A DNA stretch of 64,000 bases from Hyphomicrobiales bacterium (GTDB lineage: Bacteria > Pseudomonadota > Alphaproteobacteria > Rhizobiales > Rhizobiaceae). Where the stretch lies: positions 1 to 64,000 of the forward strand of contig JAJFHT010000205.1 of the NCBI GenBank assembly GCA_021775495.1, in the 5' to 3' direction. Below are positions 13,476-22,469 of the stretch, piece after piece (the stretch's first letter is position 1; each line of letters starts with the position of its first letter). The position numbers were made by a program, and so were the translations under genes. The notes beneath the pieces are model-generated. The model was not told the origin of the DNA. It ran no database searches and saw only the letters and a list, made by a program, of their open reading frames with translations.

Positions 13476-14852
13476 ATGACATATCAGAACTATTCGACTG
13501 CCCAACTACAAGCTATCGACGCTGCACACCATCTTCATCCCTTCACCGATCACAAGGAACTTCGCACTTCGGGAACGCGGATCATCAGCCGCGCCGAGGG
13601 AGCCTATGTCTACGATATCGACGGCCGGAAAATTCTCGACGGAATGGCCGGATTGTGGTGCGTGAACATTGGTTACGGGCGCAACGAACTGGCCGATGCG
13701 GCACATGCGCAGATGACGGAACTGCCTTACTACAATTCGTTTTTCCGCTGCTCGACACCGTCTCCGATACTTCTGGCGGAGAAGCTGGCCGAACTTGCGC
13801 CCAAGCATATCAACCAGGTGTTTTTCGGATCATCCGGCTCCGAATCGAACGACACCGCTCTTCGGTTGGCCAGACATTACTGGGCGCTGAAGGGCCAGCC
13901 GGAGAAAAACCGTATCATTTCGCGCGAATGGGCCTACCACGGATCAACCATAGCCGGCACATCGCTCGGCGGTATGGAGGCTATGCACGGACAGCTTTAC
14001 GGCGCGGTCCCGAATATTGTTCATGTGATGCCGCCTTATGCCTATGAGTTGGCTGAGCCGGGCGAGAGCGACGAGGCTTTTGGATTGCGCGCCGCACGCG
14101 CGGTTGAGGAAGCTATCCTTGAGGCCGGACCGGAAAATGTCGCAGCGTTCATCGGTGAAGCCATCATGGGTGCCGGCGGGGTCAAGGTTCCGCCGGAAAG
14201 CTACTGGCCTGAGATTCAGCGCATCTGCGCCAAATACGACGTCCTGCTGATGCTTGACGAAGTGATCACCGGCTTCGGCCGGACGGGCGAGTGGTTTGCG
14301 GCACAAACGATGGACATCCACGCGGATATGATCACAACCGCGAAAGCACTGACGTCGGGATACCTGCCGCTGTCGGCATTGCTGGTGTCGGATCGAATTG
14401 CCGAAGTGCTGGTCGACAAGGGTGGTGAGTTTTATCATGGCTACACCTATACCGGTCACCCGGTGGCCTGCGCCGTCGCGCTGAAGAATCTGGAATTGAT
14501 GGAACGTGAAGGGCTGGTGGAAAAGACCAGGACCGAGACCGCCCCATATTTTGCAAAAGCGCTGTCGGAACGCCTATCCGGTCATGAGATTGTCGGCGAG
14601 GTTCGAACTTTTGGCCTGCTGGCCGGAATAGAGATCGTCAAAGACAAGAAAAGCCGCGAGCGGTTCGATGACGGGGCGGCCTGTGTTCGTGATCACGCCA
14701 TTGCCAATGACATAATGATCCGCGCGGTCGGCGAAACCATCATTTTGTCACCGCCGCTGATATGGACCGCGGACATCATCGATCAGGCGTGTGATCGGAT
14801 ATCCGCCGCGCTTGATCTTGCCACAAGCGAATTGGGCTTGGCGCAGGACTGA
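13476..14852 (+). CDS. Class III PLP-dependent omega-aminotransferase
   Basis: A protein of 458 residues from ATG 13476, chosen because GGAG lies 8 nt upstream; a GTG at 13467 overlaps that ribosome site. Family marks are the LDGMAGLWCVNIGYGR block, GSSGSESNDTALRLAR, LMLDEVITGFGRTG, and the PLP lysine K290 in TTAKALTSGYLPLS. It resembles putrescine/taurine/beta-alanine:pyruvate transaminases; the amino donor cannot be set from sequence. It stands between the FDH genes and the exported-protein cluster, all on the plus strand, without obvious functional ties to either. Confidence 0.88.
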   Translation: MTYQNYSTAQLQAIDAAHHLHPFTDHKELRTSGTRIISRAEGAYVYDIDGRKILDGMAGLWCVNIGYGRNELADAAHAQMTELPYYNSFFRCSTPSPILLAEKLAELAPKHINQVFFGSSGSESNDTALRLARHYWALKGQPEKNRIISREWAYHGSTIAGTSLGGMEAMHGQLYGAVPNIVHVMPPYAYELAEPGESDEAFGLRAARAVEEAILEAGPENVAAFIGEAIMGAGGVKVPPESYWPEIQRICAKYDVLLMLDEVITGFGRTGEWFAAQTMDIHADMITTAKALTSGYLPLSALLVSDRIAEVLVDKGGEFYHGYTYTGHPVACAVALKNLELMEREGLVEKTRTETAPYFAKALSERLSGHEIVGEVRTFGLLAGIEIVKDKKSRERFDDGAACVRDHAIANDIMIRAVGETIILSPPLIWTADIIDQACDRISAALDLATSELGLAQD

Positions 14853-14872: not shown

Positions 14873-17101
14873 ATGGCTTGTTTTGGCGTGGGATTTCGGC
14901 TGGGCTTTAAAGCGGATCGGGGCGGCCTTGCCCTGTTCGTTGCGATTGTAGCCCTGACTTTGGTTGCATCCCCGCAGTGGGCTGCAGCGCGCAGCTACGC
15001 GCTGCTCGTTGGCGTTTCCAATTACCGTTCGGACTCGATCCCGGATCTCAAGGGACCGGTCAACGACGTGCGATTGATGAAGGCCGCATTGCAGACCCGT
15101 GGCGTCGACCAGATCAAGGTGCTGGCAGACGGCCATGACGGAGAGCCGACCCGTGCGGCAATCGGTGAGGCGATGGCGGCACTGGCCGGATCCGCAGAGG
15201 CCGGCGACCTGATCGTGCTTTACTTCTCCGGCCACGGGACTCGCCAGGCCGATGACGGCGAAGACGAAACCGATGGGTTCGATGAAGTCTTTCTTCCTTC
15301 CGACGCCAGCGTCGGTTCTGGCGAGCAAGGCAGCAAGAAGCTCGAAAACGCTCTGATTGACGATGACATTGGTAAGGCTGTCGATGCCATTCGCCAAAAG
15401 GGCGCCGATGTCTGGCTGATCGTCGACAGTTGCAGCTCGGGAACCTCGTTGCGCTCGGGTGGAAGCGCTGTAAGGGCGCGCTGGGTCAATCCGGTCGGCC
15501 TTGGCATTGCAACCACGAGAGCGGGGCCGGGCAGGGATGCATTGGTCGATACGGCGACGCTTTCGAATCCTGCCGCCGGCAAGGTGTTTGCCTTCTATGC
15601 GGCTCAATCGGGAGAGGAAGCGCAGGAGGTCAATTTCGCTGCCGCCGACGGCGATTCAAAAGCGGAACCGGCCTGGTTCGGATTGATGACCGCGAAGCTG
15701 GCGGCGCGGCTTTCGGCCGGGAGTGCATACACATACGGTTCATTGTTTCACGCCGTGCTGGCTGACATGAATTTGGCGCGGCTGCCTGGCACCCTGCGAC
15801 GGCAAACACCGCTTCGCGAGGGAAATATGGGCGATGCGCTGATCGTCGGCAGCAGCGAGACGGAACAACGGGGCGGTTCGGTATATCGGATTGTCAGAGG
15901 CAAGCTGCAAGCGGGTCTGATCCAGGGATTGCGAACCGGGGATGTGTTGTCACTGCACGAGGATGCCAATTTGAACGATACGTCGATCGGAATGGCGAAA
16001 GTAAAAATTGCGGCAGCGCTTGATTCCCGAATTGAGGTGGTCGCGACCAAATGTGGTGACAAGCTCACTGCTGACGACTGCGAATCCTCCCGGCAATTGT
16101 TGAAGAGGGCGCGGTTTGCCCGCCTGTCGGCGCCGGCGGTCCGGAGCGATGTCAAGGTCGCGCCTATTCCAGCCGGATCGAATTCCGATAACGTGCCGGA
16201 CTGGTCGGGTCACTTGACAGCGGCGTCACAGAGAGCTGGTTCCGATGTCAAGATAACATCAATGAATCCCGATATCGCAATCGTCCGCCAGGGCGAGCGT
16301 CTGGGGTTCCTCAGAGCCGGCGAACCGGTGCCAGCAAGGGGGGCCGCACTGGTCTGGGATCCTTCGGATATCGCCGAGGCCGACCGTGCCGGGGCACTGG
16401 CCGACGTCCTTGGCCGGATCGGGCGAGCCATTCGAGTCGGTCACCTTGGAAAGGCGGTCGTGGCGGTTTCAAGGTCGCGACTCGGTGGTGGTCTTGGTCC
16501 CAAACTGGCAGTGATCGGCGAAGTGGAAACGGTTGAAGCCGCGGTGCTCGATTCCGACCCGGATGCACCGGATTATGATCCCGGCGCTGAATGCCGCCGG
16601 GTGAAGAAGCTCCGTCACAAGGCGCGGCCGATAGTTGACGGAGACCGATTCAAACAATGCGAGAGGGTCACCTTGCGTGTTCGCAACCCGCTGGACAGGG
16701 CCTTCGACGTCAACGTCATCCACATAGCATCTGATTTTTCCATCCGTGTGTACCACAAACGCATAGACGGCAAGCTGGACGCCGCAAGCAAGGCTGCCGT
16801 TCTTGCAAAATGGACAGTCTGTTCCGATTGTCCGGCGCCATCGATCGGCCCGGAAACGCTGCTGACGGTCGTGTCTCCGGCTCGCGAGGGAAGCGATCGG
16901 CTGGATTTGTCTGCTCTTGCACAGAAGGTCATTCCGAAGGTTACGCGTGCAGACCAGAATCCGATGTTTGCGGCTTTTCTCGATATGGCTGCCGGGAGGA
17001 TGCCGAAACGTGGAGCCCTCGCGCCTGCACATAGCAGCGATGTCGTGGTTTCGACGTTGCATTGGCAGGTCATTTCACGCGATGGTGTCGTTGCAAACTA
17101 G
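14873..17101 (+). CDS. Exported caspase-fold (peptidase C14) protein
   Basis: A protein of 742 residues. The start is set at ATG 14873 (a TTG lies two codons earlier; no strong ribosome site for either). A hydrophobic stretch (LALFVAIVALTLVAS) ending near ASPQWAAA is a signal peptide or N-terminal anchor. The caspase-like domain follows at once (RSYALLVGVSNY to about residue 290) with the catalytic dyad His121 (YFSGHG) and Cys187 (IVDSCSSGT). The remaining 400 residues are not assigned; a late segment (LRVRNPLDRAFDVNVIHI, then IRVYHKR) resembles the beta-rich DUF4384-type tail of bacterial caspase proteins. It heads a three-gene block of exported proteins and starts 20 nt after the transaminase stop. 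The substrate is unknown. Confidence 0.82.
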   Translation: MACFGVGFRLGFKADRGGLALFVAIVALTLVASPQWAAARSYALLVGVSNYRSDSIPDLKGPVNDVRLMKAALQTRGVDQIKVLADGHDGEPTRAAIGEAMAALAGSAEAGDLIVLYFSGHGTRQADDGEDETDGFDEVFLPSDASVGSGEQGSKKLENALIDDDIGKAVDAIRQKGADVWLIVDSCSSGTSLRSGGSAVRARWVNPVGLGIATTRAGPGRDALVDTATLSNPAAGKVFAFYAAQSGEEAQEVNFAAADGDSKAEPAWFGLMTAKLAARLSAGSAYTYGSLFHAVLADMNLARLPGTLRRQTPLREGNMGDALIVGSSETEQRGGSVYRIVRGKLQAGLIQGLRTGDVLSLHEDANLNDTSIGMAKVKIAAALDSRIEVVATKCGDKLTADDCESSRQLLKRARFARLSAPAVRSDVKVAPIPAGSNSDNVPDWSGHLTAASQRAGSDVKITSMNPDIAIVRQGERLGFLRAGEPVPARGAALVWDPSDIAEADRAGALADVLGRIGRAIRVGHLGKAVVAVSRSRLGGGLGPKLAVIGEVETVEAAVLDSDPDAPDYDPGAECRRVKKLRHKARPIVDGDRFKQCERVTLRVRNPLDRAFDVNVIHIASDFSIRVYHKRIDGKLDAASKAAVLAKWTVCSDCPAPSIGPETLLTVVSPAREGSDRLDLSALAQKVIPKVTRADQNPMFAAFLDMAAGRMPKRGALAPAHSSDVVVSTLHWQVISRDGVVAN

Positions 17102-17181
17102 ATTTTTTAATACAGGCTTCATGGACTTTCCGCACATGTTTGTTGCGGTTTCCGGGGCCATTGACGGGCGGATGGCACGGC

Positions 17182-19002
17182 ATGAAAGATAATCTTCGCA
17201 ATCGGTTTCGACATTGCATCTCAATGGTTTTGGGCGGCATTTTTCTGTCCATTGTGGCGCCAACGGGTATTGCATCGGCACAAGCGCTTTCGCCGCAGCA
17301 GTTGGAGATGGCGATCAATGCCCACACCAGTGCCGGGAACATGTCGGCGGCCGCCGAACTGGTCCGCGAACAACTCGACCACGTGTCGGATCCGAGATTT
17401 CAGACCGATCTATTGCGCCGCCTGGCCGAACTCAGCGAGGCGGCCGGCGATCCCGCCGTCGCGGCGGAAGCCCTCGCGGCGCTTGCCGACTATCTTGGAC
17501 AACAACAGCCGCCCTCGGGCGAAAGGGCTCTGTTGCTGATAAAGGCCGGTGATCTCTATGCAAACGCAGGCGACGGGCGGTTGGCACTTGAAGCCTGGCG
17601 GCAGGGATTGCGCATCGCAGCGGAATCTGGCCAGCGGCCCCTCGCAGATGATTTAGCCGGTCGGCTCGAAGCGATTGCGCAGAACAAGGATGTGTCAAAC
17701 CCGGCTGACAGAAGCTTTCTCGCCCAGGCAAAAGACGATCCGGATCTTGCGGTGGAAGCCGGCGAACTTGCGGCAAGCTACCGGGAAATCGGGACGGCCG
17801 CCGACAAAGTCTTCAATGCACGTGACATCACCCGGTTTTCGGACAAAGGCTATGCCAGGGTCAAAATCTACTATGCGACCGACCGCGCGCGCGAGGACTC
17901 CGAACTGCCGGACGAATTCTATGGCGGCCGCCGTGGAGAACTGGAATACGGCACCGCCACGGTAACGGTGCCGTTGTCACACGAACCGGGACAGATCGAA
18001 GCCCCGTCGATATTTTCCTTCACGATCAATGAGGACCCAAGCCGGCATATTGTTCTGACATCCGTCGATCCTGCGCCCGGTAAAGACGTGTTTGCCGGAA
18101 TGCGTGCACATCTTGCGGCGTCTGACAGCAAGGAAGCGTTCGTTTTCGTACACGGATTCAATGTCACGTTTTCGGAGGCGACAAAGCGTACGGCCCAGAT
18201 GGCCTATGACATGGAGTTCCAGGGGCTGCCAATCCTGTTTTCCTGGCCATCGCGCGGCAGTACGCTCAGTTACATTGCCGACACCGCGGTGGTGCGATTG
18301 AGCGGCCGACGGCTGTATTCCGTCCTGCAGCGCGTGGCATCCGAATCCGGTGCAAGCCGAATTCATCTCATCGCCCACTCGATGGGCAACCGCGCAATGA
18401 CTGATGCTCTGGAACTTTTTGCCTTGAGCCACCAGGGAGACGAACCGGTTTTCGACCAAGTTCTCTTCACGGCGCCCGACTTAGATGCCGGGCTGTTCAG
18501 CGAGATGGTTCGGACGATTCGACGCGTTGCGGCCCGTGTGACGCTTTACGCATCCAACAATGACTGGGCGCTGGTGGTGTCGCGGCAATTGCATGGCGAC
18601 TCGGCACGGGCCGGACAGGGTGGCGAGGAAATTCTGAAAGCCGAGGACGTCGATAGTGTCGAGATGTCAGCGCTGGGAGATGACATGCTGGCGCACAGCT
18701 ATTATGCCAACAACGCCTCCGCGTTGACCGATATCCTCTCGTTGTTCTGGCGCGATGTGCCGCCGGAACAACGCTGCGGCATGAAAAGAACCGCTGGGGC
18801 GAAAGGCGAATTCTGGCAATACGATCCCAGTCTTTGCGATGGTGATGCGATGCTCGCGGCCTTGCGGGTATTGCACCGCGGCGGCGCTCGAACGCTCGAA
18901 CAGGCGCGCGCCCTGCTGAAAAAGTCGCTTGGCCCGAATGTTCTTGAGACGATCGGCAATGAACGTATCGAGGCTGCGCTGGCGAAGCTGTACAACCGAT
19001 AA
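17182..19002 (+). CDS. Exported alpha/beta hydrolase, DUF900 type, with helical N-terminal repeats
   Basis: A protein of 606 residues from ATG 17182; an upstream extension to 17062 overlaps the previous gene and does not look like protein. A signal peptide (SMVLGGIFLSIVAPTGIASAQA) precedes an Ala/Leu-rich helical region of about 180 residues that looks TPR-like. The hydrolase domain follows (VKIYYATDRARE to the end) with FVHGFN (322-327), nucleophile Ser400 in AHSMGN, acidic candidates in APDLDAGLF (433, 435) and a His candidate in AHSYYAN (505). DUF900 enzymes are esterase-like with few known substrates. It lies 80 nt after the caspase gene and 14 nt before the CHAT gene, suggesting one transcript and a joint extracytoplasmic role. 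Confidence 0.83.
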   Translation: MKDNLRNRFRHCISMVLGGIFLSIVAPTGIASAQALSPQQLEMAINAHTSAGNMSAAAELVREQLDHVSDPRFQTDLLRRLAELSEAAGDPAVAAEALAALADYLGQQQPPSGERALLLIKAGDLYANAGDGRLALEAWRQGLRIAAESGQRPLADDLAGRLEAIAQNKDVSNPADRSFLAQAKDDPDLAVEAGELAASYREIGTAADKVFNARDITRFSDKGYARVKIYYATDRAREDSELPDEFYGGRRGELEYGTATVTVPLSHEPGQIEAPSIFSFTINEDPSRHIVLTSVDPAPGKDVFAGMRAHLAASDSKEAFVFVHGFNVTFSEATKRTAQMAYDMEFQGLPILFSWPSRGSTLSYIADTAVVRLSGRRLYSVLQRVASESGASRIHLIAHSMGNRAMTDALELFALSHQGDEPVFDQVLFTAPDLDAGLFSEMVRTIRRVAARVTLYASNNDWALVVSRQLHGDSARAGQGGEEILKAEDVDSVEMSALGDDMLAHSYYANNASALTDILSLFWRDVPPEQRCGMKRTAGAKGEFWQYDPSLCDGDAMLAALRVLHRGGARTLEQARALLKKSLGPNVLETIGNERIEAALAKLYNR

Positions 19003-19016
19003 CGGGTTTGGCGCTG

Positions 19017-22000
19017 GTGATAAGAAATATCGCTCTGATTATCTTATTGCTTGCCGGCCCGTTCCCGGCAGTTGCCGATCAGCGACTGGATGGACTCGTC
19101 ACGAAGACTATCGAGCATTTGAATTCCGGAGACAATGAAGCGGCGCTTGCCGTTGCCAGTGAAGCAACCGCTCTCGCCAGATCCTTGCAGCGACCCGACC
19201 CTGCAACCTTTGCCAATGCGTTGAACAATCATGCCTATTTGCTGTTTCTGCTTGGTCGGGAACCACAGATGGCAGATCGGCTATGGCAGGATGGTCTGGA
19301 TGTTCTCGCCGAAAACGAACTCAACTTCACTGATGTTTGGTTCCGCACAATTTACAATATTTCGGCAGCACTGATTGCCCGAGGAGATCGTCAGACGGCC
19401 GATTCCCGCATCGCGAAAATGATCAAAGATGCGGAACAGGGCGGCAAACAGGGAATGGCGCTGGCACAGGCTGCATCGTTCTACTACTCCCATCAGGACT
19501 TCCAAGAGGCCGCCCGGCTGGCGATGCGCGTGATGGATGTCGAGCCTGAATTGCTGCGTCCGGCCGCAACACAGATTTACCTGGAATACGTCAAGACCAC
19601 CGACAGGTTGTACGAAACGGGGGATGTACCGGGTGCTGCCGCTTTGGCGGATGCCTTGCTCAAGCTTGCCGAGACCTATTTTCCTGGCGAGGCGCAGATG
19701 ATCCGTAACGCCCATTTTCGAATTCATTCCCAGGCATTCCAGGCCAAGGATTATCTGCGCGCCGCCAATGCCCTGACCGGATGGGTTGCAGTCGGAGGAC
19801 TGGCCGAGAACGAACTGGCCTACGTCGACGAGATGGCGAGCTCGATGGTTACGGCCGCCCAACTGAGCTACTACAAGGAAAAACGTGACGTGCAGCTGGA
19901 TTATGCATTTCTTGCCATCGCATTTGCACGGGCGCTTGGCCGGACGGATGATCCACGCCTCGGCTGGGCGCTTCGCGAGCTGGCTGCGGCTCAATCGAAC
20001 TTGCAGCAATCCGAAGAAGCGGCAAAGAGTTTGCGGCAGGCGCTTGCGGTGCTGCATAGATCGGCCGAAGGCCGCCAGGGTGCTCATCTGATTTACGCCG
20101 ATATGGCAAGCAATGCCTGGCTTGCCGGTGATTTCCCGCTTGCGCTGAACATGTTTGCCAAGGCAGAGGCGAGCTATGACGCGGGTGGTGATCGGCACCG
20201 GCTGTCCGATACCGATCAGGCCATATTCCTGTTCAACCGGGCCGGGCTGCATGTCGAACTGAAGGAATTCGAAAAAGCAGTCGAACTTCTGGAAAGAGCG
20301 ATACCCCTGCATGAGGGTTCGCGCCGCGAGCGGGCGTTCAAGTGGAATGATGAAACACTAATCGCGACATTTCTGGACAGGCTGGCACTCGTGCGATCAG
20401 AACTCGGTGACGATGATGAGGCGCTTAGACAGAGCGATCGGGCAATCGATCTGAGCCGCCGGTTCTATCCGGAACAACATCCCGATCGTGCTAGGCGGCT
20501 GGCTAACGCTGCCGACCTGCGCGGCGTTTACGGAATGAAAGACGAGGCAGAACAATTGTTGCGCGAGGCGGTCGCGATTTACCGCGAAGCGCTTCCGGAC
20601 GATGTCCCGGACCTGGTTGAAACCGAGTTCAAACTGGCGTTGACGCTGCTGTCAAAGGGCAAATTCAATGAGGCCTCGGTCCTTTTGGAACGCATTGTCG
20701 AAGCCAGGAAATCACCTGCGTACAGAGAACGGATTGGTGACGCTGCCTGGGAGTTCGAACTGTTTGCCTGGGCGCGGCTGATTGCCGATCAGCCGGGAGC
20801 CGGCGAAGCGGCATTCGAAGCGTTGCAGTGGACCCAGATTGCCAGTTCGGCGAGAGCCCTCTCCGGTGCGGCAGAACGCCTCTCGGTGTCGGATAATAAT
20901 CTGTCCGCCCTGATCCGGGAGCGGCAGGATCTGTTACTGGAAAACACGATCCGGACAAAGGCGCTGATGGCATCGCTGGCTTCGAGCGATACGACAGGAT
21001 CGGACCTGGCGTCGGGTCGCGGCAGGCTTTCAGCAATTGAGCAACGCCTTCAGGAGATCGACGGGCAACTATCCGACGGTGGTTTCGATCTGATCGGTCT
21101 TGGTGCAGTACGTCCGATCGGAATTCAGGCTGTTCAGCGCCTGTTGAAGGCCGATGAGGTGCTGGTGACATTTCTGCTTCCGAGCCTGAAGCCGGGTGTT
21201 TTTCCGGAAACCACCGGCTCTTCGAACCGCGTTGTCGCGATCTCGAGAGATTCCTTCAAATGGGGGAAGATCGGAGAAATCAGCCGGCGTAAGCTGGCGG
21301 CTCGCGGGCGGGCATTTCGATGTCAGATGGCCATCGCCGATGCGGGGTGTCGCAGCGGCGAAAATAAAATTCTGCGCGCGGTTCTCGATGAAGGGGATGA
21401 ACAACCGGAGGCATCGGCGACAGAATCCTCCGAATTTGAATTATCCGAGGCACGAGCTCTGTACCGGGACCTGTTCGGTTCGGTGGAGGAACTCGTTTCC
21501 GACAAAGAACACCTTATTGTCGTTCCGCCGGGCGACCTGCTGTCATTGCCGTTCCACGCGCTGGTTGTCGATGGCGGTGGCGACAGTCTGAAACAGGCAA
21601 ATTGGTTGATACGGCGCCAGGCGGTTTCGATATTGCCGTCCGTTCCCAGTCTCAGAGCCTTGCGAAGCGAAGTGGCCGTCCGCCAGCCGGCTGAGCGAAA
21701 TTTTCTCGGTATCGGCGATCCGGTGATCGGATCACCTGCGTCTGTCGACTGCGGTACCATCAATATTGCAGCGCTGCGTGCTGCGCCGCCCGATATTGCG
21801 CTTTTTGATCAGGACGGGTCCGTGGGATTGCCGGTTGCCGATGTCACCAGAATCGCTTCGCTGCCTCGGCTTCCCGATACCGTTTGCGAGTTGCAGGCCC
21901 TTCGATCCGCATTGGGCGGGAGTGAGCAGGACCTCTTGCTGGCAGAAGACGCAACGGAACGTCGGCTGAAGAAGCTCGATTTGGACGGCGTATTGGCAAA

Positions 22001-22469
22001 CTACCGCGTTCTCGCCTTCGCGACACACGGCCTCGTTGCCGGCGAAGGCGGAGGTACTGAACCGGGACTGGTCCTGACACCGCCGCAAGAGGGAAGCGTT
22101 GACGATGACGGGCTTTTGACGGCCAGTGAAGTATCCGCATTGAAACTCAATGCTGATTTTGTCGTTCTGTCTGCGTGCAATACGGCGGCGGGGGATCGGT
22201 CTGATGCGCAAGGACTTTCCGGCCTTGCCCGAGCTTTTTTTCACGCCGGCGCGCGGGCGCTGCTCGTCACCCACTGGTCGGTCTACTCCGAGGCAGCAGT
22301 CCGGCTGACGACCGCGACGTTTGCCGCGCGGCGCAAGAACCCCGATATCGGGCGTGCCGAGGCGCTTCGCAGCGCGATGCTGTCGATCATCGATGATCCG
22401 GCGGCATCGGCGGAACAATTGCATCCCGCTTATTGGGCTCCGTTTGCGGTTGTCGGCGAAGGCGGATAA
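19017..22469 (+). CDS. Exported TPR-CHAT protein (caspase-like protease domain)
   Basis: About 1150 residues. Translation probably starts at GTG 19017 (CGGG 10 nt upstream); a TTG at 19008 is in frame. The N-terminus (IALIILLLAGPFPAVADQ) is a signal peptide. Residues about 25-650 are helical repeats of TPR type (for example ANALNNHAYLLFLLG, LANAADLRGVYGMKDEAEQLLREAVAIYREALP). The C-terminal CHAT domain has the dyad His1004 (FATHGLV) and Cys1054 (VLSACNT), then the HWSVYSEAAVRL region that closes CHAT domains. CHAT domains belong to peptidase clan CD, like the caspase two genes upstream. TPR-CHAT proteins act as proteases in several bacterial systems, but those are cytoplasmic; here export is predicted. 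Function unknown. Confidence 0.87.
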   Translation: MIRNIALIILLLAGPFPAVADQRLDGLVTKTIEHLNSGDNEAALAVASEATALARSLQRPDPATFANALNNHAYLLFLLGREPQMADRLWQDGLDVLAENELNFTDVWFRTIYNISAALIARGDRQTADSRIAKMIKDAEQGGKQGMALAQAASFYYSHQDFQEAARLAMRVMDVEPELLRPAATQIYLEYVKTTDRLYETGDVPGAAALADALLKLAETYFPGEAQMIRNAHFRIHSQAFQAKDYLRAANALTGWVAVGGLAENELAYVDEMASSMVTAAQLSYYKEKRDVQLDYAFLAIAFARALGRTDDPRLGWALRELAAAQSNLQQSEEAAKSLRQALAVLHRSAEGRQGAHLIYADMASNAWLAGDFPLALNMFAKAEASYDAGGDRHRLSDTDQAIFLFNRAGLHVELKEFEKAVELLERAIPLHEGSRRERAFKWNDETLIATFLDRLALVRSELGDDDEALRQSDRAIDLSRRFYPEQHPDRARRLANAADLRGVYGMKDEAEQLLREAVAIYREALPDDVPDLVETEFKLALTLLSKGKFNEASVLLERIVEARKSPAYRERIGDAAWEFELFAWARLIADQPGAGEAAFEALQWTQIASSARALSGAAERLSVSDNNLSALIRERQDLLLENTIRTKALMASLASSDTTGSDLASGRGRLSAIEQRLQEIDGQLSDGGFDLIGLGAVRPIGIQAVQRLLKADEVLVTFLLPSLKPGVFPETTGSSNRVVAISRDSFKWGKIGEISRRKLAARGRAFRCQMAIADAGCRSGENKILRAVLDEGDEQPEASATESSEFELSEARALYRDLFGSVEELVSDKEHLIVVPPGDLLSLPFHALVVDGGGDSLKQANWLIRRQAVSILPSVPSLRALRSEVAVRQPAERNFLGIGDPVIGSPASVDCGTINIAALRAAPPDIALFDQDGSVGLPVADVTRIASLPRLPDTVCELQALRSALGGSEQDLLLAEDATERRLKKLDLDGVLANYRVLAFATHGLVAGEGGGTEPGLVLTPPQEGSVDDDGLLTASEVSALKLNADFVVLSACNTAAGDRSDAQGLSGLARAFFHAGARALLVTHWSVYSEAAVRLTTATFAARRKNPDIGRAEALRSAMLSIIDDPAASAEQLHPAYWAPFAVVGEGG

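Follow-up and report, generated by a model that had tools for sequence, protein, structure and literature searches.

The 64,000-nucleotide stretch analysed here (the window; contig JAJFHT010000205.1 of the Hyphomicrobiales bacterium assembly GCA_021775495.1) carries at 14873-22469 a block of three successive plus-strand open reading frames (ORFs). Their products matched the Pfam families Peptidase_C14 (73 bits), DUF900 (150 bits) and CHAT (187 bits), plus TPR, and are called CASP, DUF900 and CHAT below. ORFs and Pfam matches agree with a preliminary description of this DNA, which had recognised three consecutive plus-strand genes for a caspase, a DUF900 protein and a TPR-CHAT protein. The gap between the first two genes is 80 bases, and that between the second and third is 5 bases (14 with the GTG start at 19017). 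Residue numbers refer to the window proteins. The features of the block are:

14873..17101, plus strand: CASP, a metacaspase-type caspase (C14) of 742 aa, predicted to be exported (ORF, Pfam, homologue alignment)
14873..14989, plus strand: predicted signal peptide of CASP, with cleavage after AAA at residue 39, judged by eye
14993..15811, plus strand: Peptidase_C14 caspase domain (Pfam)
17182..19002, plus strand: DUF900, an alpha/beta hydrolase of 606 aa with a TPR-like helical N-terminal arm, predicted to be exported
17182..17280, plus strand: predicted signal peptide of DUF900, with cleavage after ASA at residue 33, judged by eye
18100..18723, plus strand: DUF900 hydrolase domain (Pfam)
19008..22469, plus strand: CHAT, a TPR-CHAT protein of 1153 aa from the TTG start (1150 from GTG 19017), predicted to be exported
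19008..19076, plus strand: predicted signal peptide of CHAT, with cleavage after AVA at residue 23
20361..20588, plus strand: best TPR_12 stretch within the TPR arm of CHAT (Pfam)
21450..22460, plus strand: CHAT protease domain (Pfam)

Catalytic residues were followed in alignments of homologues scoring at least 120 bits (CASP), 350 bits (DUF900) or 170 bits (CHAT), in which a few rows are one gene fetched twice. The CASP dyad His121/Cys187 was invariant (34/34 rows), as were the S1 residues Asp65 and Asp185 (34/34). In DUF900, Ser400, Asp433, Asp461 and His505 were unchanged in 41/41 rows, and the CHAT dyad His1007/Cys1057, numbered from TTG 19008, was retained in 27/27. The earlier assignment of His121/Cys187 and Ser400 was correct in position, and the His1004/Cys1054 given for CHAT is right when counted from GTG 19017. 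Ser400 had been called a GxSxG-type nucleophile; the serine is intact, but its motif is A-H-S-M-G and not a strict GxSxG. Large TPR scaffolds had also been ascribed to the block. Among the block proteins, TPR or TPR-like regions were found only in CHAT and in the N-terminal arm of DUF900, and the caspase yielded none.

All three N-termini resemble Sec signal peptides. We applied a simple rule, which is not SignalP, to the homologues and to other ORFs of the window; it asks for a charged start, a hydrophobic stretch and a small-x-small site, and it permits alternative starts. Signal-peptide-like N-termini were accepted in 25/27 CASP, 16/18 DUF900 and 19/22 CHAT proteins, and in 14/15 trypsins and 7/7 rhodanese-like proteins encoded at related loci (see below). 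Several of the failures resemble over-long ORFs or fragments. The same rule accepted 7/35 of the remaining ORFs of 200 aa or more in the window. The cysteines provide a second line of evidence. Mature CASP contains the catalytic cysteine and six others, of which 394 and 403 were kept in 20/20 rows and the remaining four in 19/20, with one gap. Mature DUF900 contains two, both present in 41/41 close rows; when distant relatives were included they were kept in 51 and 50 of 81 rows. The four non-catalytic cysteines of CHAT (772/781/915/960) behaved as an all-or-none set, with all four in 14/27 rows and none in 13/27. A syntenic relative (L145, from genome G599) keeps the same cysteine sets as the window proteins. 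This paired conservation is the pattern expected from disulfides outside the cytoplasm, and it supports export independently of the signal peptides. We regard it as well supported by these sequence features that CASP, DUF900 and CHAT are exported, and they would act outside the cytoplasm, either in the periplasm or as secreted proteins. The export of all three that had been proposed earlier is thereby upheld, and misannotated N-termini of cytoplasmic proteins are unlikely.

Among proteins of solved structure, CASP is closest to metacaspases and Geobacter GSU0716, and it has the p20 fold. Its Asp65 stretch could be aligned to TbMCA2, metacaspase-4 and Yca1, and its Asp185 stretch to metacaspase-4 and Yca1 only. 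Passages of PMC4357240 and PMC6426788 describe the acidic S1 residues of metacaspases as accommodating basic substrate residues, and the latter source also describes both as highly conserved in prokaryotic pseudo-orthocaspases. Because Asp65 and Asp185 are kept and lie in stretches that align to metacaspases, in which such residues are linked to basic substrates, CASP is predicted to cleave after Arg or Lys. The structure model of CASP was of moderate confidence (mean pLDDT 67), and for this reason its beta-rich C-terminal half, which contains the conserved cysteine pairs 394/403, 574/596 and 650/653, was not assigned a fold. In the CASP tree the window protein falls in one clade with 19 others (support 100/99), and for 17 of these the locus also has DUF900 or trypsin. 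The window genome encodes a second CASP paralogue on a 3487-base contig (C361, L024). The two are 41% identical over residues 30-443, and the second is divergent from a TPR protein truncated by the contig end.

DUF900 was modelled with higher scores (mean pLDDT 86.5), and the model has a TPR-like N-terminal arm. Its fold matches PETase/cutinase and lipases weakly (best E 7.1e-4), which suggests an esterase-like enzyme and nothing more specific. The conserved cysteine pair, Cys532/Cys552, is C-terminal. As given in part of PMC11878206, DUF900 function is unknown and a Rhizobium meliloti member has an N-terminal leader. In a tree built without the sequences of genomes G599 and G673, the window DUF900 grouped with 13 Rhizobiales proteins (support 95), and no CASP or CHAT match was found beside any of these in the fetched stretches. 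Since the window protein groups with stand-alone proteins, the linkage was probably gained or lost more than once. The window CHAT grouped in a quick tree with six CHAT proteins that are linked to trypsin (support 100).

Conserved adjacency of the three families had been suggested as a check on the joint reading of the block. Genome contigs, some of them short, were scanned with the DUF900 alignment, and the best 80 loci were inspected. CASP was adjacent to and divergent from DUF900 in 15 of these (L052, L058-L071), and CHAT was also present in 14 of the 15. The linked locus without CHAT is L063, whose contig ends nearby, and the CHAT gene of L058 is in pieces; the ORF at 13865-14722 inside this fragmented region resembles an IS3-type transposase. 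Weaker caspase matches were obtained in 8 more loci (L057, L076-L079, L082, L083, L108), and 57 had no caspase match, one of which (L111) has a CHAT match. Among the weaker cases, L077-L079, L082 and L083 are gammaproteobacterial or proteobacterial loci from metagenome-assembled genomes, with a distant DUF900 relative and a different, shorter caspase within ~7 kb. The rearranged clusters occur in Rhodobacterales and some Rhizobiales, usually with CASP and DUF900 divergent and CHAT on either side.

Within a sample of the window's own family, which the named relatives indicate is probably Rhizobiaceae in the GTDB sense, a caspase match at E<=1e-20 was present in 37/297 genomes, at 51 places. CASP matches of at least 250 bits were confined to three genomes, those of the window (two places), G599 and G673, and each of the three has a linked CASP. 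G599, from another genus of the family, carries CASP, DUF900 and CHAT in the window order (43%, 57% and 45% identical, respectively), and its DUF900 is the nearest found to that of the window. The G599 CHAT (L145, 6104-9603) is spread over two overlapping ORFs that lie in different frames, either through a real split or through a sequencing error. G673 has a rearranged full cluster with CHAT, trypsin, a rhodanese-like gene, CASP, DUF900 and a small gene together. Eight of the 47 lower-scoring caspase places were inspected, and these had no partner match within 17-18 kb. In a class-wide sample, 3/385 genomes, one of them the window genome, had the caspase at E<=1e-25. At such rarity, adjacency as often as seen here seems far from what chance would give. 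Linkage of CASP, DUF900 and CHAT thus appears, on comparison of these loci, to be real but patchy, and this conclusion is well supported. The expected adjacency was borne out by the same gene order in G599 and by other orders in many Rhodobacterales, but not by the 13 Rhizobiales DUF900 proteins with which that of the window groups.

The annotated triad is also found on two Sulfitobacter plasmids, in two arrangements. On one of them, pTHAF37_d of Sulfitobacter THAF37 (L035, 14259-20763), a mechanosensitive channel gene comes after the triad, together with one encoding a 1472-aa WD40-like/caspase protein. Pseudosulfitobacter accounts for 46/57 of the plasmid records matched by CASP. One Pseudosulfitobacter plasmid (L037) has genes for two caspases, for trypsin-like and serine peptidases, for a patatin-like phospholipase and for a paired histidine kinase and regulator; its CHAT lies in another part of the record. 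In the sample of the taxonomic order, some CASP-like genes stood with CHAT or trypsin and without an adjacent DUF900 in L020, L022, L032 and L038. L022 (genome G038) has a run of two caspase genes, one TPR-CHAT gene and three trypsin genes, with no DUF900 match beside them.

Further partners were identified by neighbour clustering among the matches listed and by domain searches. The fuller loci add an exported-looking trypsin, an exported-looking rhodanese-like protein and a small protein. Of the 15 linked loci, 8 carry the trypsin and one more a fragment of it, 6 encode the rhodanese-like protein and 8 the small protein. Strains that have the trypsin include Maritimibacter alkaliphilus HTCC2654 and Actibacterium naphthalenivorans DSM 105040. 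The rhodanese-like protein is related to PQQ_CXXCW (74 and 93 bits, under the cut-off of 128). The small partner is ~150-215 aa long with apparent membrane helices, judged by eye, and the three that were searched had no Pfam match. Sixteen trypsin rows contain a TAAHC motif. In 15 of them a basic residue (13 Arg, 2 Lys) stands directly ahead of the predicted new N-terminus of a classical zymogen, and the context of the site in these 15 is xxGG (13) or xxNG (2). The sixteenth row is L125 of the window genome, and the L063 trypsin fragment was not countable. Beyond these rows, the G673 trypsin provides a further zymogen site with Arg. The partner trypsin is therefore predicted to be a zymogen with an Arg/Lys activation site, which fits the predicted Arg/Lys specificity of CASP. 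This gives an indirect lead to the earlier suggestion that one protease activates the other; action of CASP on CHAT or the reverse, and selection of substrates by the TPR arms, are conjectural.

The window genome (6.03 Mb, 444 contigs, 94.9% complete) has four trypsin-family matches. One of them, L125, is a distant, unlinked trypsin on the minus strand of contig C391 (1465-2412), with a possible leader and Arg-Ile-Val-Asp-Ala where the zymogen site would sit. It is a possible candidate for an unlinked zymogen-like serine protease in this genome. When compared by search, the other three trypsin-family proteins gave no match to the partner trypsin.

The block lies 20 bases from the upstream aminotransferase gene and 131 bases from the downstream gene. 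Metabolic genes predominate among the eight examined in the flanks (formate-dehydrogenase-like subunits, a class-III aminotransferase, a saccharopine-dehydrogenase-like protein, DUF2270, an EamA transporter and two dehydrogenases). We considered whether the block is a foreign island by composition. Its GC content and GC3 (GC content at third codon positions) are near the flank values, and a recent foreign origin is unsupported. Promoter and terminator scans gave site counts not above those of shuffles.

We propose that the block represents the compact form of an extracytoplasmic protease module that recurs in other genomes, a TPR-CHAT/caspase/DUF900 relay, and we put this reading at somewhat short of an even chance. 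The TPR-CHAT protein would sense or dock an envelope client and become active, and CHAT and the metacaspase-type caspase, a predicted Arg/Lys cutter, would form the relay. In the fuller loci, the caspase or the CHAT protease may cut the basic bond before the new N-terminus and so release the trypsin zymogen, with trypsin as the amplifier. The TPR-armed DUF900 esterase/lipase could be the output, with envelope lipids or further esters as its substrates, or cleavage could switch DUF900 itself. Trypsin is not linked in the window, and there CHAT and CASP might act on DUF900, on other envelope proteins or on an unlinked serine protease; the candidate L125 makes a relay there slightly easier to conceive. 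The presence of the components, their intact sites, predicted export, linkage and compatible cleavage chemistry argue for this proposal at the level of sequence; each interaction, as well as the order, the trigger and the purpose, is inferred. A bolder form, which we consider unlikely, is that the module would be in principle a bacterial counterpart of a clotting- or complement-type zymogen cascade, in which an exported TPR-CHAT sensor protease and an exported Arg/Lys metacaspase would activate, outside the cytoplasm, an exported trypsin zymogen together with the TPR-armed esterase and so raise an alarm or a defence at the envelope, with the window holding a short form that lacks a linked trypsin.

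Several observations weigh against the relay. Most close Rhizobiales relatives of DUF900 stand alone, and DUF900 can therefore presumably act without CASP or CHAT. CASP, CHAT and trypsin occur without an adjacent DUF900 in L020 and L022, and CASP-like genes without any partner in the fetched stretch were seen in L031 and L147-L154. CHAT subtypes vary between loci, and the rows that lack the four cysteines include the linked loci L035, L036, L066, L067 and L071. Trypsin zymogens often self-activate at Arg or Lys; self-activation would explain the site, and the zymogen-site match is thus not specific to the caspase. In the window genome no close relative of the partner trypsin was found (best 22-24 bits, L125 only), and no rhodanese-like match was obtained in a search that had no positive control genome.

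The same enzymes might instead be co-located secreted digestive hydrolases, which would break down protein and lipid outside the cell as nutrients, independently of any relay. All three look exported and hydrolytic, the eight flanking genes examined have for the most part metabolic functions, and Pseudosulfitobacter has caspases together with a patatin-like phospholipase and trypsin-like peptidases. Docking arms of TPR or TPR-like type on CHAT and DUF900 would however be unusual in digestive enzymes, the predicted Arg/Lys pocket and the zymogen site fit regulated cleavage, and neither the rhodanese-like nor the small membrane-like partner is digestive. On balance we hold a purely digestive role to be possible but unlikely. 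An envelope quality-control or stress response, in which damaged or oxidised envelope proteins and lipids are trimmed and the TPR arms choose the clients, would suit the predicted disulfide-bonded envelope proteins, the rhodanese-like partner with its sub-cut-off relationship to PQQ_CXXCW proteins and the mechanosensitive channel gene nearby in Sulfitobacter THAF37. The patchy distribution of the caspase nevertheless speaks against a housekeeping function, with 3/385 class genomes and, of the 37/297 family genomes, only three at 250 bits or more, and the Sulfitobacter copies are on plasmids; we rate this explanation as quite unlikely.

A defence or conflict module of the envelope, directed against phage, predators or rival bacteria, would have a parallel in the cytoplasmic caspase/trypsin conflict systems. 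According to PMC8195603, enzymes of these classes are predicted to serve as effectors of bacterial conflict systems, and the distribution is patchy and partly plasmid-borne, with shuffled gene orders. PADLOC models, on the other hand, matched none of the eight flanking genes and, of the three block proteins, the caspase domain only, and no NTPase domain was found by Pfam in the three. We judge this explanation distinctly improbable. The same PADLOC results led us to reject assignment of the block to a known anti-phage system. For seven homologue or partner proteins, PADLOC returned a single caspase match, plus a weak match of the L058 partner trypsin to LmuA (22 bits). If the signal peptides have been misread, the three proteins would be cytoplasmic effectors, and it is true that the start codons rest on ORF calls and that CHAT may start at TTG or GTG. 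The recurrence of signal-peptide-like starts among homologues and the even numbers of conserved non-catalytic cysteines make this very improbable indeed. A cytoplasmic abortive-infection system was likewise judged unlikely from the signal peptides and the cysteine pairing.

Bacterial caspase and CHAT proteases are discussed mainly as cytoplasmic effectors of death or immunity, as in PMC8195603. If the proposed relay holds, caspase and CHAT chemistry would extend into the envelope through a conserved set of exported proteins that has its own trypsin zymogen. Such a set would offer a multi-step bacterial protease relay directly testable in culturable Roseobacter-group strains and would give a context for DUF900 hydrolases. 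The enzyme classes are known; among the openly licensed papers listed by our searches, we found no earlier description of the exported, linked caspase-CHAT-DUF900 set and none of DUF900 together with a caspase.

TPR-CHAT proteases are known, for example the type III-E CRISPR TPR-CHAT and HetF. The block CHAT shares with them the TPR arm and a CHAT domain with a His-Cys dyad, but differs in its predicted export, two predicted disulfides and caspase and DUF900 neighbours. In type III-E CRISPR (Craspase) the protease is accompanied by an adjacent Cas effector and a CRISPR array; the eight genes that flank the block are mainly metabolic and had no PADLOC matches, with no search aimed at CRISPR made. 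EACC1, NucA-trypsin and related conflict systems likewise use caspase-like, trypsin-like and alpha/beta hydrolase proteins as effectors or activators, but are EAD- and NTPase-centred, unlike the block, as set out in parts of PMC8195603. Such effectors include caspase, trypsin and alpha/beta hydrolase in that source, and the words 'periplasm' and 'signal peptide' are absent from its main text. The window caspase reached 50.2 bits against the EACC1-associated caspase model (NCBIfam NF047832), short of the cut-off of 140. With orthocaspases and other prokaryotic caspase homologues (Peptidase C14), CASP has in common the p20 fold, the His-Cys dyad and the two S1 Asp residues. The export of a caspase homologue has a precedent, since PMC6426788 reports a TAT-like leader in YS pseudo-orthocaspases of cyanobacteria. 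What CASP adds is the signal peptide, the long beta-rich C-terminal half with three cysteine pairs and conserved exported partners. DUF900 shares with other alpha/beta hydrolases of its family (PF05990) the domain match and the Ser-His-Asp catalytic residues, and is set apart from them by its TPR-like N-terminal arm, its C-terminal cysteine pair and its linkage to the caspase and CHAT.

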